A DNA stretch of 64,000 nucleotides from assembly GCF_000313565.1 (NCBI RefSeq), contig NZ_HE578923.1, forward strand, positions 190,942 through 254,941, read 5' to 3'. Under the pieces are notes generated by a model. It ran no database searches. It was given only the letters and a program-made list of their open reading frames with translations, and was not told where the DNA came from. Source of the DNA: Dielma fastidiosa. Its GTDB lineage: Bacteria; Bacillota_I; Bacilli_A; Erysipelotrichales; Erysipelotrichaceae. Positions 39,677-46,523 of the stretch are shown one piece after another. Positions within the stretch are counted from its first letter, which is position 1. Each line of letters starts with the position of its first letter. The translations under genes and the position numbers were made by a program.

Positions 39677-40108
39677 ATGGAAGTCAAACGAATCGTACAT
39701 GGAGATATTAAAGCCTATTTCAAGGTTTTGACAGACTCTTTGCTAAGTGATTATAATGCTGCCATGCAGGCAGAGTATACCAGCGATGTATTGAAGAGCG
39801 GTCTTACTTATCAGAAAAAGCTGCGCAACAGTTTTGGCAATGAGGGAACGGTGAGTGTCAGTATTGACCGGTTTGAAGAGAATCATTATGCCGCCAGCTT
39901 TAAAAGTGCCCAGGGAATCAATCAATTATCTTATGATTTAGAGCCTTTAGATAATCAGCAATTTGAGGTGACGTATAAGGAAGATTTTTTCTCAGAATCA
40001 AAGAGTAAAAGTCTGAATTATTCAATCATGTCAAAATTATATAAACGTTCCAGTAAAAAGAAAATGAATCTCATGCTGGATGCGATTGAAAAAATGATAC
40101 AAGAATGA
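39677..40108 (+). CDS. DUF3284 domain protein
   Basis: 143 residues from the ATG at 39677 (GAGGGAAGTAAG upstream). The sequence (KAYFKVLTDSLLSDYNAAM, GLTYQKKL, SSKKKMNLMLDAIEKM) fits DUF3284, a small family found almost only beside Lac/cellobiose-type PTS genes. Its function is unknown. A full terminator hairpin starts inside its last codons. Confidence 0.8.
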   Translation: MEVKRIVHGDIKAYFKVLTDSLLSDYNAAMQAEYTSDVLKSGLTYQKKLRNSFGNEGTVSVSIDRFEENHYAASFKSAQGINQLSYDLEPLDNQQFEVTYKEDFFSESKSKSLNYSIMSKLYKRSSKKKMNLMLDAIEKMIQE

Positions 40109-40130
40109 GAATGGGAGCATTCTCATTTTT
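40104..40130 (+). terminator. Internal terminator between DUF3284 and mupG
   Basis: Perfect 10-bp stem AATGAGAATG/CATTCTCATT with GGAG loop and TTT tail. The DUF3284 stop codon lies in the left arm. It probably lowers mupG expression relative to the PTS genes. Confidence 0.75.
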
Positions 40131-40146
40131 ACTAGGAGGAACAACT

Positions 40147-41241
40147 ATGGCAAGATTAGGAATTTCAGTTTATCCTGAACATTCATCAATGGAAGAAATC
40201 CAAGAGTATATCAGGTTGGCAGCCCGCTACGGCTTTAAACGCATTTTCAGCTGTCTGCTTAGTGTGGGGGAACGCAGCCGTGAAGAGATTATTGAAGAAT
40301 ATTCAAAAATGATCGCTGCTGCTCATGAACATGGTATGGAAGTTATTTTAGATGTAGCGCCGTTTGTCTTTGAACGCTTGGGTATTACTTATAAAGATTT
40401 ATCGTTTTTCACAGCATTAAATGTAGATGGTATCCGTCTTGATGAGGGCTTTGATGGTTTAAAGGAAAGCTTGATGAGCTATAATAAAGAGCGGTTGAAG
40501 ATAGAAATCAATGCCAGCTTTGGTAATGGTTATATTGCTAATATTATGAGTCATTATCCGAATAAGGATGGTTTAATTACATGTCACAATTTTTATCCGC
40601 AGAAGTATACCGGACTATCGCTGAAACATTTCAATCACTGCAATGAAGATATTAAAAAGCAGGGATTGAAAATTGCGGCTTTTGTTTCTTCACAGAAGCG
40701 TGATACGTTTGGCCCTTGGCCGGTAAATGAAGGCTTATGTACATTGGAAATGCATCGTGAGCTGCCGATTGATGTGCAGGTACGGCATCTGTTTGCGACG
40801 CGTCAGGTGGATGATGTAATCATTGCCAACGCTTTTGCCAGTGAAGAGGAGCTGCGTATTTGTTCAATGATTGATCCAGCCCTGCTGACCTTCAGTATCG
40901 ACTTTGAAAAGGAATTAAATCCGACCGAATATAAGGTTATTTATGAACATGAGCATTTTGTCCGCGGTGATATGAGTGAATATATGGCACGTTCTACAAT
41001 GCCAAGAGTTACTTATGCGGCGGAAAGTGTGCCAGCGGCTAATACCCGTGATTTAAAACGCGGTGATGTAATTGTCATTAATGATAACTATTCACGGTAT
41101 AAAGGTGAACTGCAGATTATCTTAAAAGATATGCCAAATGACGGACGCCGCAATGTGGTGGGCAGAATTCCTGATAATGAGTCAATGCTGCTGGATTATA
41201 TTCAGCCATGGATTCCTTTCGCATTCATGAAAAAAGATTAG
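40147..41241 (+). CDS. mupG: MupG-like 6-phospho-N-acetylmuramidase (DUF871)
   Basis: 364 residues from the ATG at 40147 with TAGGAGG upstream. N-terminal TIM barrel (MARLGISVYPEHSSMEEIQEYIRLAARYGFKRIFSCLLS, LDVAPFVFERLG, GIRLDEGFDG) and a C-terminal small beta domain. MupG of Staphylococcus cleaves cytosolic MurNAc-6-phosphate-GlcNAc after PTS import. This agrees with the Lac-type PTS upstream, although no murQ etherase lies in the window. Assignment rests on family resemblance and context. Confidence 0.85.
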   Translation: MARLGISVYPEHSSMEEIQEYIRLAARYGFKRIFSCLLSVGERSREEIIEEYSKMIAAAHEHGMEVILDVAPFVFERLGITYKDLSFFTALNVDGIRLDEGFDGLKESLMSYNKERLKIEINASFGNGYIANIMSHYPNKDGLITCHNFYPQKYTGLSLKHFNHCNEDIKKQGLKIAAFVSSQKRDTFGPWPVNEGLCTLEMHRELPIDVQVRHLFATRQVDDVIIANAFASEEELRICSMIDPALLTFSIDFEKELNPTEYKVIYEHEHFVRGDMSEYMARSTMPRVTYAAESVPAANTRDLKRGDVIVINDNYSRYKGELQIILKDMPNDGRRNVVGRIPDNESMLLDYIQPWIPFAFMKKD

Positions 41242-41274: not shown

Positions 41275-41303
41275 TATGGGAGAAAGCAAAAGGAGTGATA
41301 CTT

Positions 41304-41975
41304 GTGGCAGCACCCATTTATCTGCAGATAAAAGATCAGATGATTGAAGAGATACAGCAGCTTAGCGCCAATGCGCCAATTCTCAGTGAACGCGATCTTG
41401 CAGTTAAATATAACGCGAGCCGCATGACCGTACGCAAGGCTGTAAATGAATTGGTTGATGAGGGTTATTTGTACCGGGATTCCAATAAAGGCACCTTTGT
41501 AGCGGATGAAAGACTGCATAAGCGCAATACTTCAGTAGACCCTTTTGCGGAAGAGCGGCCGATCAAGTATAAGATTCTATATTTTGATATCAAGGCGACC
41601 TCTTCCAAAGATGTCCAGGATCGTTTATTTATCTCATCAGAGGAATCGGTGTTAAGAATTGTTCGGGTGGCAATGTTTGAGGAACGTCCTCAATCGATTG
41701 AGGAAATCTATTTTCCACGTTTAAGCATTCCTGATGAGGATCTGGGTAATTTTAAAAAGCTGCTTGATTTTAATTCATACATTGCGCATGGCAGCCTGTC
41801 ACAGACGTTTGTGCCGATCATTGTACCGCCGCAGTACGCGCATCTTCTTAAGCTTAAAATTAATACGCCGATTATTCTTGTGGAGAACGTGATTACCAGC
41901 AAGAACGGCAAGCCCTTATTATATATGAAGGTATTCAATAACCCTAATGAAAAGGTTATTGAAATGACATTATAA
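41304..41975 (+). CDS. GntR/HutC-family regulator of the PTS-mupG operon
   Basis: 223 residues from the GTG at 41304, which has AAAGGAG 8 nt upstream; the GTG at 41295 is inside that ribosome site. Winged helix (PIYLQIKDQMIEEI, LAVKYNASRMTVRKAVNELVDEGYLYRDSNKGTFVA) and a C-terminal UTRA effector domain (LRIVRVAMFEERPQSIEEIYFP). HutC-type proteins bind phosphorylated sugars. It is the obvious binder of the five TGGnnTAnACCA sites around this operon, including one in its own promoter. Confidence 0.9.
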   Translation: MAAPIYLQIKDQMIEEIQQLSANAPILSERDLAVKYNASRMTVRKAVNELVDEGYLYRDSNKGTFVADERLHKRNTSVDPFAEERPIKYKILYFDIKATSSKDVQDRLFISSEESVLRIVRVAMFEERPQSIEEIYFPRLSIPDEDLGNFKKLLDFNSYIAHGSLSQTFVPIIVPPQYAHLLKLKINTPIILVENVITSKNGKPLLYMKVFNNPNEKVIEMTL

Positions 41976-41986
41976 CGATAACTTAA

Positions 41987-42012
41987 GACAGTCAGACATC
42001 TGGCTGTTTTTT
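41987..42012 (+). terminator. Terminator of gntR
   Basis: Stem CAGTCAG/CTGGCTG (one wobble) with short loop and TTTTTTC tail. Confidence 0.85.
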
Positions 42013-42032
42013 CATTCAAGGCTGCCTTTGTG

Positions 42033-42041
42033 TGGTATAAT
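42033..42041 (+). promoter_or_regulatory. Extended -10 promoter of mgtE
   Basis: TGGTATAAT: extended TGn plus TATAAT, with no clear -35. It starts a leader of roughly 60 nt before the upstream ORF and 135 nt before mgtE. Confidence 0.6.
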
Positions 42042-42109
42042 TAAATAGGATTTAAAGTTGTGTCAGAAATGATTTGATGACAATTTATTCTCTGAAAGGT
42101 GGTGGTTTT

Positions 42110-42223
42110 ATGAGTCCGGATAGTCAAAACGATGGTTATGAGCGAGTCAGGAACATGATTCCACGATTGGAAGGAGAAGATTATGGAAGAAATCAAAAAA
42201 TTATTAGAAGCAAAGCAGTTTAA
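42110..42223 (+). CDS. Upstream ORF overlapping mgtE, 37 aa
   Basis: ATG with strong AAAGGTGGTGG upstream. The peptide begins MSPDSQNDGYERVRNMIPRL, contains the acidic EGED, and ends beyond the mgtE start in another frame (41-nt overlap). The mgtE ribosome site AAGGAG lies within this ORF, so translation of one affects the other. It could be a leader peptide that senses Mg2+ through translation, as mgtL does in enterobacteria. Confidence 0.55.
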   Translation: MSPDSQNDGYERVRNMIPRLEGEDYGRNQKIIRSKAV

Positions 42224-43841: not shown

Positions 43842-43883
43842 ATGTGTGTGAAAGAAATCACAATAAGGTTTGGAGGAAAAAAT

Positions 43884-46523
43884 ATGGCAAACGAAAAACA
43901 AAAAGAAGTAGAAAATGTTCAAGCTGTCAGCCCGGCAGTTGCTGAAGTAAATCGTTTAGTAGATAACGGTTTGAAGGCACTCGATGAATTCATGCTGCTG
44001 GATCAAGATCAAGTTGATTATATCGTAGCGAAGGCATCAGTTGCTGCACTGGATCAGCATGGTGTGCTGGCATTGGCCGCAATCGAAGAAACCGGCCGCG
44101 GTGTGTTTGAAGATAAGGCAACAAAGAATTTATTCGCCTGTGAGCATGTTGTCAACAATATGCGTCATACCAAAACAGTAGGCATCATTTCTGAAAATGA
44201 TGTTACAGGCATTACTGAAGTAGCGGAACCGGTAGGTGTTGTCTGCGGTATCGTACCGACAACCAACCCAACCTCAACAGCAATCTTCAAAAGCTTAATC
44301 TGTTTGAAGACAAGAAATCCAATCGTGTTCAGCTTCCATCCATCTGCTGTTAAATGTTCAATTCAAGCGGCTAAGGTTGTCTATGATGCAGCTGTTGCGG
44401 CGGGTGCTCCTAAGAACTGCATTCAGTGGATTGAAAAACCTTCAATGGAAGGTACAAACGCATTGATGAATCATCCAGGTATTTCTACAATCTTGGCAAC
44501 TGGCGGCAATGCAATGGTTAAAGCAGCTTACTCATGCGGTAAACCAGCATTAGGTGTTGGTGCCGGCAACGTACCTGCTTATGTAGAAAAATCATGTAAT
44601 ATCCGTCAGGCTGCTAATGATATCGTGTTATCAAAGGCATTTGACAATGGTATGATCTGTGCTTCTGAATCGGCTGCCATAATCGATAAAGAAATCTATG
44701 ATGAATTCCTGAAGGAAATGAAAACTTTCGGAGTTTACATGGCTAATAAGAAAGAAAAAGAATTGCTTGAAAAATATATCTTCGGTGTAACAGCTTATTC
44801 AGCAGATGTTGATAAAGCTAAAATGAATCCGAATCAGGTTGGTAAATCTGCAAAATGGATTGCGGAACAAGCGGGCTTCAAGGTTCCTGAAAATACCGTC
44901 ATTATCTTAGCTGAATGTAAAGAAGTAGGTCCTAATGAACCGCTGACTCGTGAGAAGTTATCACCAGTATTAGCAGTGTTGAAATCAACAACTACTGAAG
45001 AAGGTATGAAGATGGCTGAACAGATGGTTGAGTTTAACGGTCTGGGACATTCAGCTGCGATTCATACATCTGATGATGCGATTGCGAAAGAATTCGGCAA
45101 ACGTATGAAAGCAATCCGTATTATCTGGAATTCACCTTCTACTTTCGGCGGTATCGGTAATGTATACAACGCCTTCCTCCCATCATTAACACTTGGCTGC
45201 GGATCTTATGGACATAACTCGGTTGGCAACAACGTAAGTGCCATTAACCTGATCAATATCAAGAAACTGGGGAGACGTAAAAACAATATGCAATGGTTCA
45301 AAGTACCTTCTAAGATTTATTTCGAAAGAGATTCAATTGAGTATTTGAGACAAATGAGAGAAATGGAACGTGTCTATATTGTTACTGACCGTTCAATGGT
45401 TGATTTAGGTTATGTAAATAAGGTCACTGATCAGCTGAACCTGCGCCGTAATAAAGTTCAATATCAATTATTCTGCGATGTTGAGCCAGATCCATCAATC
45501 GCAACAGTACAGCGCGGTGTTGAAATCATGAGAGCCTTCCAGCCGGATACGATTATCGCATTAGGCGGCGGTTCATGTATGGATGCTGCTAAGGGTATGT
45601 GGCTGTTCTATGAAAATCCTGAAGTTAACTTCGATGATCTGAAACAAAAATTCATCGATATCCGTAAACGCGCCTTCCGTTATCCGGAATTAGGCAAGAA
45701 ATCAAAACTGGTTTGTATCCCAACAACCTCTGGTACAGGTTCAGAAGTAACACCATTTGCGGTTATCTCTGATAAGATTGCCAACAAGAAATATCCGCTG
45801 GCTGATTACTCACTGACACCAACAATCGCGATTGTTGACCCAGCTCTGACAATGAATCTGCCGCGTTCAATAACGGCTGATACCGGTATGGACGTATTAA
45901 CTCATGCTACTGAGGCTTATGTTTCTACATTGGCTAATGATTATACGGATGGTTTATGCTTACAGGCAATTAAGATCGTGTTCAAATATCTGCTGCGCGC
46001 AGTAAATAATGGGGCTAATGATCCAGAAGCACGTGAAAAGATGCATAATGCTTCTTGTATCGCAGGTATGGCATTTGCCAACGCGTTCCTGGGTGTTAAC
46101 CACTCCATCGCTCATAAGATCGGTGCTGAATTCCATGTTCCGCATGGCCGTGCCAATGCGATTCTGCTGCCGCATGTAATCCGCTACAATGGTACAAAAC
46201 CGCAGAAAAACAGCTTATGGCCGAAGTATAATTACTATCGTGCTGATGAAAGATATGCAGAAATCGCTCAAATGCTCGGTCTGCCTGCATCCACTGTTGA
46301 AGAGGGTGTCGCATCTTACGCGAAAGCTTGCGCTGATTTAGGTAAAGCATGCGGTATCAAGATGAATTTTGCTGACCAGGGTATTGATGAAAAAGATTGG
46401 AAAGACAGAGAAAGAAGAATTGCTCTGCTTGCTTATGAAGATCAGTGCTCACCGGCAAATCCACGTCTGCCAATGATCGAGGATATGATTGATATTCTTG
46501 AAAAAGCATATAAAGGCAACTAA
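43884..46523 (+). CDS. adhE: Bifunctional aldehyde-alcohol dehydrogenase AdhE
   Basis: 879 residues from the ATG at 43884, preceded by TTTGGAGG. N-terminal aldehyde dehydrogenase domain with catalytic Cys in GMICASESAAII and NAD-binding GVGAGNVPAYVE. The C-terminal iron-dependent alcohol dehydrogenase has GGGSCMDAAKG and the metal histidines in HSIAHKIGAEFHVPHGRANAILLPHVIRYN. It reduces acetyl-CoA to ethanol via acetaldehyde, forms spirosomes, and re-oxidises NADH. It is monocistronic, with a perfect cre upstream. Confidence 0.97.
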   Translation: MANEKQKEVENVQAVSPAVAEVNRLVDNGLKALDEFMLLDQDQVDYIVAKASVAALDQHGVLALAAIEETGRGVFEDKATKNLFACEHVVNNMRHTKTVGIISENDVTGITEVAEPVGVVCGIVPTTNPTSTAIFKSLICLKTRNPIVFSFHPSAVKCSIQAAKVVYDAAVAAGAPKNCIQWIEKPSMEGTNALMNHPGISTILATGGNAMVKAAYSCGKPALGVGAGNVPAYVEKSCNIRQAANDIVLSKAFDNGMICASESAAIIDKEIYDEFLKEMKTFGVYMANKKEKELLEKYIFGVTAYSADVDKAKMNPNQVGKSAKWIAEQAGFKVPENTVIILAECKEVGPNEPLTREKLSPVLAVLKSTTTEEGMKMAEQMVEFNGLGHSAAIHTSDDAIAKEFGKRMKAIRIIWNSPSTFGGIGNVYNAFLPSLTLGCGSYGHNSVGNNVSAINLINIKKLGRRKNNMQWFKVPSKIYFERDSIEYLRQMREMERVYIVTDRSMVDLGYVNKVTDQLNLRRNKVQYQLFCDVEPDPSIATVQRGVEIMRAFQPDTIIALGGGSCMDAAKGMWLFYENPEVNFDDLKQKFIDIRKRAFRYPELGKKSKLVCIPTTSGTGSEVTPFAVISDKIANKKYPLADYSLTPTIAIVDPALTMNLPRSITADTGMDVLTHATEAYVSTLANDYTDGLCLQAIKIVFKYLLRAVNNGANDPEAREKMHNASCIAGMAFANAFLGVNHSIAHKIGAEFHVPHGRANAILLPHVIRYNGTKPQKNSLWPKYNYYRADERYAEIAQMLGLPASTVEEGVASYAKACADLGKACGIKMNFADQGIDEKDWKDRERRIALLAYEDQCSPANPRLPMIEDMIDILEKAYKGN

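Follow-up and report, generated by a model that had tools for sequence, protein, structure and literature searches.

How might Mg2+ control a Mg2+ transporter gene whose leader carries no magnesium riboswitch? The question is raised by the mgtE gene of Dielma fastidiosa, which lies in the 64-kb window (the whole stretch of DNA analyzed here, 64,000 nt) and is overlapped at its start by a short leader ORF (uORF). In gut Firmicutes whose mgtE genes have no M-box, a uORF of this kind suggests a possible route to Mg2+ control. The M-box (ykoK leader, RF00380) is a direct RNA sensor that works without translation and shuts off Mg2+ uptake genes at high Mg2+. A second way of measuring Mg2+, through the stability of ribosomes at acidic and proline codons of a leader peptide, is already documented in enterobacteria: the EPDP sequence of MgtL, the peptide encoded in the mgtA leader (E. 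coli sequence given in PMC8934632), provokes ribosome drop-off at low Mg2+, and MgtL works via Rho-dependent termination (PMC11282234). The preliminary description of the D. fastidiosa locus had proposed that its uORF encodes a Mg2+-sensing peptide.

Layout of the mgtE Leader

The window MgtE has the domains of an ordinary MgtE (MgtE_N, CBS, and MgtE). The features of its gene and leader, in window coordinates, are:

42033–42041, + strand: putative extended −10 promoter element TGGTATAAT, read by eye from the sequence
42073–42191, + strand: whole leader element, as matched by covariance model R1 (see below)
42088–42093, + strand: 5′ strand of the outer helix (UUCUCU), pairing with GGAGAA of the mgtE Shine-Dalgarno (SD) at 42173–42178 in the MFE and centroid folds
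42095–42105, + strand: SD of the uORF, AAAGGTGGTGG (SD duplex −11.2 kcal/mol; fold)
42110–42223, + strand: uORF, ATG at 42110, stop ending at 42223, 37 codons, MSPDSQNDGYERVRNMIPRLEGEDYGRNQKIIRSKAV
42154–42168, + strand: 3′ strand of the inner helix (CAUGA..CCAC.AUU), pairing with the SD and start codon of the uORF at 42098–42112
42170–42179, + strand: SD of mgtE, GAAGGAGAAG, within the uORF and the outer helix
42183–43514, + strand: mgtE, Mg2+ transporter/channel of 443 aa (Pfam PF01769, PF03448, PF00571)

The coordinates confirm the arrangement first described, in which the uORF starts 73 nt 5′ of the mgtE ATG, is read in a different frame, contains the mgtE SD, and overlaps mgtE by 41 nt; its ribosome site is indeed the stronger of the two, with an SD duplex energy of −11.2 vs. 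−8.1 kcal/mol for mgtE. An M-box had been thought absent, and the Rfam search found neither it nor any other family in the window's mgtE leader. Relaxed thresholds brought up weak look-alikes of eukaryotic snoRNAs only, which were taken as chance matches. From the extended −10 element, transcription would be expected to start near 42048 and to yield a leader of about 135 nt; the element has no good −35 partner and is absent from the output of the consensus promoter scan.

On the 5′ side of mgtE lie a gene for a MupG-type 6-phospho-N-acetylmuramidase (40105–41241) and then a GntR/UTRA regulator gene (41295–41975), closed by an apparent terminator near 41983–42013; on the 3′ side, after about 330 intergenic nt, stands a full-length ORF that by eye is bifunctional and AdhE-like (43842–46523). 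Among the best matches listed, identity to the window MgtE reaches 79% for Lachnospiraceae MgtE proteins and no more than 67% for those of Erysipelotrichales, and since the window protein is closer to the former, these sequences suggest that mgtE was horizontally transferred, perhaps along with its leader.

Occurrence of the uORF Upstream of mgtE

The frequency expected of any gene was taken from the window together with 400 kb of D. fastidiosa genome sequence, where 155 genes are preceded by 130 nt or more of intergenic DNA; a uORF was scored where an ATG with an SD duplex of −9 kcal/mol or lower lay at −180 to −45. The rule for mgtE homologs was nearly identical, with slightly wider limits (−200 to −40); the mgtE samples were dereplicated, and genes with no close long ORF preceding them were counted as non-operonic. 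Seven of the 155 control genes had a uORF, one of the seven being the window mgtE, which leaves 6/154 other genes; several of these cases look like real small genes (by eye, an acyl-carrier-like protein and a KdpF-like peptide). By contrast, of the non-operonic mgtE genes, 49 of 69 from Erysipelotrichales and 39 of 46 from Lachnospiraceae have a strong-SD uORF (together 88/115, so that about 27 have none). Where an ORF closely precedes mgtE, the counts are 0/14 and 3/29, respectively. A wider sample of the class Clostridia, scored with slightly looser SD and start-codon limits, gave 19/28. The ORF noticed in the window is thus a conserved companion of mgtE, present across Erysipelotrichales, Lachnospiraceae, and other Clostridia. 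No such uORF was found in the corA leader of D. fastidiosa, and a search of plasmid DNA gave no match.

Sequence Bias of the Leader Peptides

Nearly every Lachnospiraceae uORF encodes a core around D-x-P-L-P-G-R-S (e.g., MKSTKISSDNPLPGRSC and MKQSISASNSDIPLPGRSIK; the peptide of leader L101 is MKSNQISSDNPLPGRSC). The form in other Clostridia is MD(S/A/P)-x-PLP, with examples such as MDSGPLPNSY, MDASPLPSS, VDPGPLPSL, MDPIPSRSR, and MDNIPGRSS, and Erysipelotrichales peptides include NDVPEPS, SDQVPLC, MDEIPKS, MDDKPGGS, and MDVPLCN. The motif [DE]x(0-3)P within residues 2–16 occurs in 32 of 49 uORFs from Erysipelotrichales, 38 of 39 from Lachnospiraceae, and 11 of 19 from Clostridia, but in 17 of the 296 D. 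fastidiosa protein N-termini that served as background; the corresponding p-values (1e-20, 1e-35, and 2e-8) are descriptive only, because the tests were picked after the sequences had been viewed and the species are related. Asp stands at position 2 in 19/49 Erysipelotrichales and 17/19 Clostridia uORFs vs. 10/296 N-termini. The enrichment in Erysipelotrichales is confined to the reading frame of the uORF (Pro, 5.7% vs. 1.5%; Asp and Glu, 14.5% vs. 3.5–8%). Conservation of the Lachnospiraceae core is at the protein level, since its key Pro codon is fixed at positions 1 and 2 (0 bits of variation) and free at position 3 (1.34 bits); Asp is encoded equally by GAT and GAC, and Arg mostly by CGA (L056–L135). 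CGA is often a slowly decoded codon, and the core Arg may in this way add to pausing.

A search for the pattern SD-ATG-D.PLP in 392 genomes of the window's phylum returned 24 matches, mostly within other genes, and none of the ten loci inspected lay before mgtE, probably because the PLP form belongs to Lachnospiraceae, which GTDB places in another phylum.

The early codons of the window peptide (MSPDSQND) had been likened to the acidic and Pro-rich start of mgtL. The comparison supports this for the family, through the motif enrichment, but the window peptide itself, MSPDSQNDGYERVRNMIPRLEGED, is a modest and atypical, outlying member: it has only SPD and ND early and lacks the PLP-GR core, so its Mg2+ sensitivity, as judged from these residues, may be weak. 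The nearest partial likeness to the core is IPR at codons 17–19 (CCA CGA for Pro-Arg). Its relatives include further diverged peptides (L033, MSSDGVSLCR; L166, MAEGIPDKENR). The uORF peptide has no Pfam match.

Two Helices Over Both Ribosome Sites

The earlier reading of the leader as a translation-based sensor had missed a hairpin that sequesters both ribosome sites. The segment 42048–42200 folds with −39 kcal/mol (z = −3.61); the 5′ strand of its inner helix includes 42102–42105, within the uORF SD, and its outer helix takes in the mgtE SD. The window leader belongs by its layout to a group defined by a strong-SD uORF that starts 64–103 nt before mgtE and ends inside it (−73 to +41 in the window). 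In 58 such overlapping-uORF leaders, the fit of the two strands within a species was compared with that of strands swapped between species (5000 permutations). Native strands fitted better in both the inner helix (−14.3 vs. −10.1, z = −14.2, 0/5000) and the outer helix (−10.8 vs. −7.4, z = −11.5, 0/5000), and the signal of both was seen in each lineage separately, whereas six controls that paired these segments in other ways, reversed strands included, were flat (|z| ≤ 1.8). Examples of such strands are GAGGTGGTATTCATG with GATGAATACCATTTTC (L040), AGGTGATTTTCATGA with ACATGAAAATCATTA (L038), and GGATGTGATTGTATG with AATACAATTATGTCTA (L006).

Covariance model R1 was built from 26 Lachnospiraceae leaders and no Erysipelotrichales sequence. 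Its sole match in the 64-kb window was the mgtE leader (42073–42191, 39.7 bits, E = 3e-6), and it also matched 15 other Erysipelotrichales mgtE leaders; 400 kb of the D. fastidiosa genome gave a single match, with E = 0.59. The R1 score draws partly on the SD and start codons and is not a pure test of pairing. RNAalifold found no consensus structure on a mixed MAFFT alignment, and covariation on a rigid Lachnospiraceae alignment was modest, probably because the register of the helices shifts among lineages.

The computed cost of opening the mgtE site averaged 9.4 kcal/mol in native leaders vs. 5.8 kcal/mol with shuffled upstream sequence, and the site was the more occluded in its native context in 51 of the 58 leaders. 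With a ribosome placed at the uORF start, the mean cost fell to 5.5 kcal/mol (from 8.9 to 1.8 in the window leader); with a ribosome at codons 4–5, it was about 7 kcal/mol (3.5–4.6 in the window), and a ribosome at codons 8–11 hardly lowered it. Opening is thus eased only when the ribosome stands near the beginning of the uORF (start to codon 5) or late in it, and pausing at the Lachnospiraceae core alone fails to explain it, because a mid-uORF ribosome hardly lowers the cost. The dependence on ribosome position is a property of the opening energy of the whole site; the accessibility of the mgtE SD alone (−14 to −7) is independent of it. In this model, mgtE would be favored as long as ribosomes occupy or reload the uORF start and do not run through, and run-through followed by refolding would disfavor it.

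M-box Tandems and Other Mg2+ Transporter Genes of D. fastidiosa

Seven mgtE leaders (L019, L023, L024, L025, L030, L246, and L252) carry a uORF 3′ of an M-box, and the same order is found in the mgtA leaders of D. fastidiosa and L259. These tandems place uORFs in Mg2+-controlled leaders, which is short of proof that the uORFs sense Mg2+. D. fastidiosa itself has one M-box only, before mgtA and not at the window mgtE, and two more of its Mg2+ transporter genes, mgtE2 and mgtA, have leaders of the uORF type:

L138 500–574 (G000:C1, mgtE2 at 139942): strong-SD uORF MDASVPERLQIEPDEISTSKPSRC, which ends before the gene and has EPDE
L140 ~2676–2783 (G000:C4), − strand: leader of mgtA, a P-type ATPase gene, with an M-box (237356–237527) and then a uORF, MESGCSGIGHDDGHARVSILLTESDQTCILILSDL

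The peptide that follows the mgtA M-box begins MESGCSGIGHDDGHARV, and the comparable M-box and uORF of L259 yield MEDSPHCKY.... A peptide like that of mgtE2, MEASVPDRRWTAEESASLHEPLRR (MEASVPDRR...), is encoded in mgtE leader L201 of another genus.

Proposed Mechanism and Alternatives

The architecture of the leader suggests translational control, and from comparison of sequences the window leader is likely to sense Mg2+ for mgtE in cis, at the level of translation, by means of a leader peptide combined with an RNA hairpin. In the naked leader, the outer helix would mask the mgtE ribosome site and the inner helix that of the uORF, and ribosome loading on the uORF would open the hairpin. At high Mg2+, the acidic, Pro, and Arg codons would be read smoothly, and the ribosome would cross and occlude the mgtE SD and start, terminate 41 nt within mgtE, and let the hairpin reclose, so that little MgtE is made. 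At low Mg2+, ribosomes would pause or fall off at the early acidic and Pro codons; the uORF start would be kept occupied or reloaded, the hairpin would stay open, the mgtE ribosome site would remain uncrossed, and MgtE would be made. Expression at low Mg2+, as predicted if ribosomes stop or drop off early, is what an uptake gene would call for, and either pausing or drop-off could underlie it. The Mg2+-sensing leader of the preliminary description thus gains from conservation, the acidic and Pro bias, and the M-box tandems, with a window peptide that is a modest example; Mg2+ as the signal, pausing or drop-off at these codons, and the sign of regulation are what we infer.

Translation of the uORF could also act in the opposite direction, the ribosome melting the hairpin and delivering ribosomes to mgtE, so that full translation of the uORF raises mgtE expression; low Mg2+ would then lower mgtE, or the signal would be general translational capacity. 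Sequestration of the mgtE site in free RNA, as computed from the opening cost, agrees with this, as does the end of the uORF just past the mgtE start (+14 to +52 in the overlapping group), a classical geometry for coupling. However, its sign is wrong for a Mg2+ uptake gene, a kind of gene that the M-box, borne by some of the related leaders, turns off at high Mg2+; mgtE already possesses a good SD, and the position of the uORF stop varies widely and falls in two frames; we consider such positive coupling unlikely. Pausing at Pro and Arg might instead report charged tRNA-Pro or tRNA-Arg, EF-P activity, or osmotic or polyamine stress, and Pro and Arg (mostly CGA) are the most invariant residues of the Lachnospiraceae peptides. 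There is a precedent for Pro in Salmonella mgtP: of the two leader ORFs of mgtCBR, one is responsive to ATP and the other to charged tRNA-Pro (PMC8092293). Yet an acidic residue is almost as conserved as Pro in Lachnospiraceae, most Clostridia peptides have Asp as their second residue, the one to three Pro codons that most uORFs contain are few for a Pro attenuator, and the host genes are Mg2+ transporters, some with an M-box in the leader, which makes another signal quite unlikely.

A uORF that served to make a small protein with a function of its own, such as a regulator of MgtE, and not as a cis-acting leader would account for the real SD and the conserved presence beside mgtE, but the conserved core is short, length and C-terminus are free, no Pfam family matches, the mgtE ribosome site restricts what the C-terminal half can encode, and the RNA helices covary; we hold this very improbable. 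Short overlapping ORFs are frequent in any genome, and the window uORF could in principle be one of them without function; this is barely credible, chance being ruled out at the level of the family by the counts (88/115 vs. 6/154), the frame-specific bias, the codon constraint, the covarying helices, and the match to an independently built model.

Comparison with Known Leaders

The mgtE uORF of Bacillota resembles MgtL in being a short, SD-led ORF before a Mg2+ transporter gene and in having early acidic and Pro residues followed by Arg, as in the D-x-P-L-P-G-R of Lachnospiraceae and the MDSGPLP of Clostridia. By inspection, no homology to the mgtL/mgtA leader was found beyond the short PLP.R resemblance in relatives, and what the two share is composition and this string rather than a demonstrated descent. 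Destabilization of ribosomes at low Mg2+ is reported for MgtL and only proposed for the mgtE uORF, which precedes a different transporter in a different phylum, overlaps the transporter start in the window's group and, unlike MgtL's leader, comes with a hairpin that hides the transporter ribosome site. The Salmonella mgtB leader ORF mgtQ shares translational action, acidic codons (Asp2 and Glu5), and alternative helices that hide the transporter ribosome site (PMC8092293), but it has 8 codons, lies between mgtC and mgtB, is not described as overlapping mgtB, and uses different helices. The M-box controls genes for Mg2+ transporters in these same bacteria, in some cases in tandem with similar uORFs, but it is a direct RNA sensor and absent from the window leader. 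As described in PMC11109978, the Thioalkalivibrio mgtE motif is likewise a structured leader that takes in the mgtE SD and start codon; by that description, it is a riboswitch candidate restricted to one proteobacterial genus, for which the passages concerned describe no uORF. The M-box-controlled uORF2 of mycobacteria is also conserved, has a Pro that never varies, and belongs to a leader regulated by Mg2+, but it is specific to mycobacteria, lies upstream of PE/PPE genes, and is itself the regulated product (PMC12810186).

Searches of open-access literature found MgtL, mgtQ, mgtM/mgtP, the M-box, and the Thioalkalivibrio mgtE motif as related systems and no mgtE leader peptide in Bacillota, an absence that is not proof. 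From its sequence features, the mgtE leader is probably a leader-peptide Mg2+ switch for another transporter, in another phylum, and with a different RNA architecture. We lean slightly toward a broader view, in which gut Bacillota widely use leader peptides that arose independently of mgtL and converged on an acidic/Pro/Arg code, with the ribosome measuring Mg2+ and controlling MgtE by a two-helix translational switch that is sometimes stacked behind an M-box. Such a stack, if real, would set two different Mg2+ sensors on one mRNA. If ribosome-based sensing did arise in Clostridia and Erysipelotrichia for a transporter unrelated to that of enterobacteria, it would point to a general and testable rule tying ribosome integrity to Mg2+ homeostasis. 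The natural variety of the peptides provides many sequences for mapping the codons that make ribosomes Mg2+-sensitive.

Leaders with Non-overlapping uORFs

In a second group of leaders, the uORF stops before mgtE and hairpins follow, and these leaders may work differently. Eight of them (L015, L171, L178, L018, L020, L021, L196, and L197) have non-overlapping uORFs starting with MD and, in the interval from the uORF to mgtE, strong attenuator-like hairpins, possibly another version of the mgtE uORF switch.
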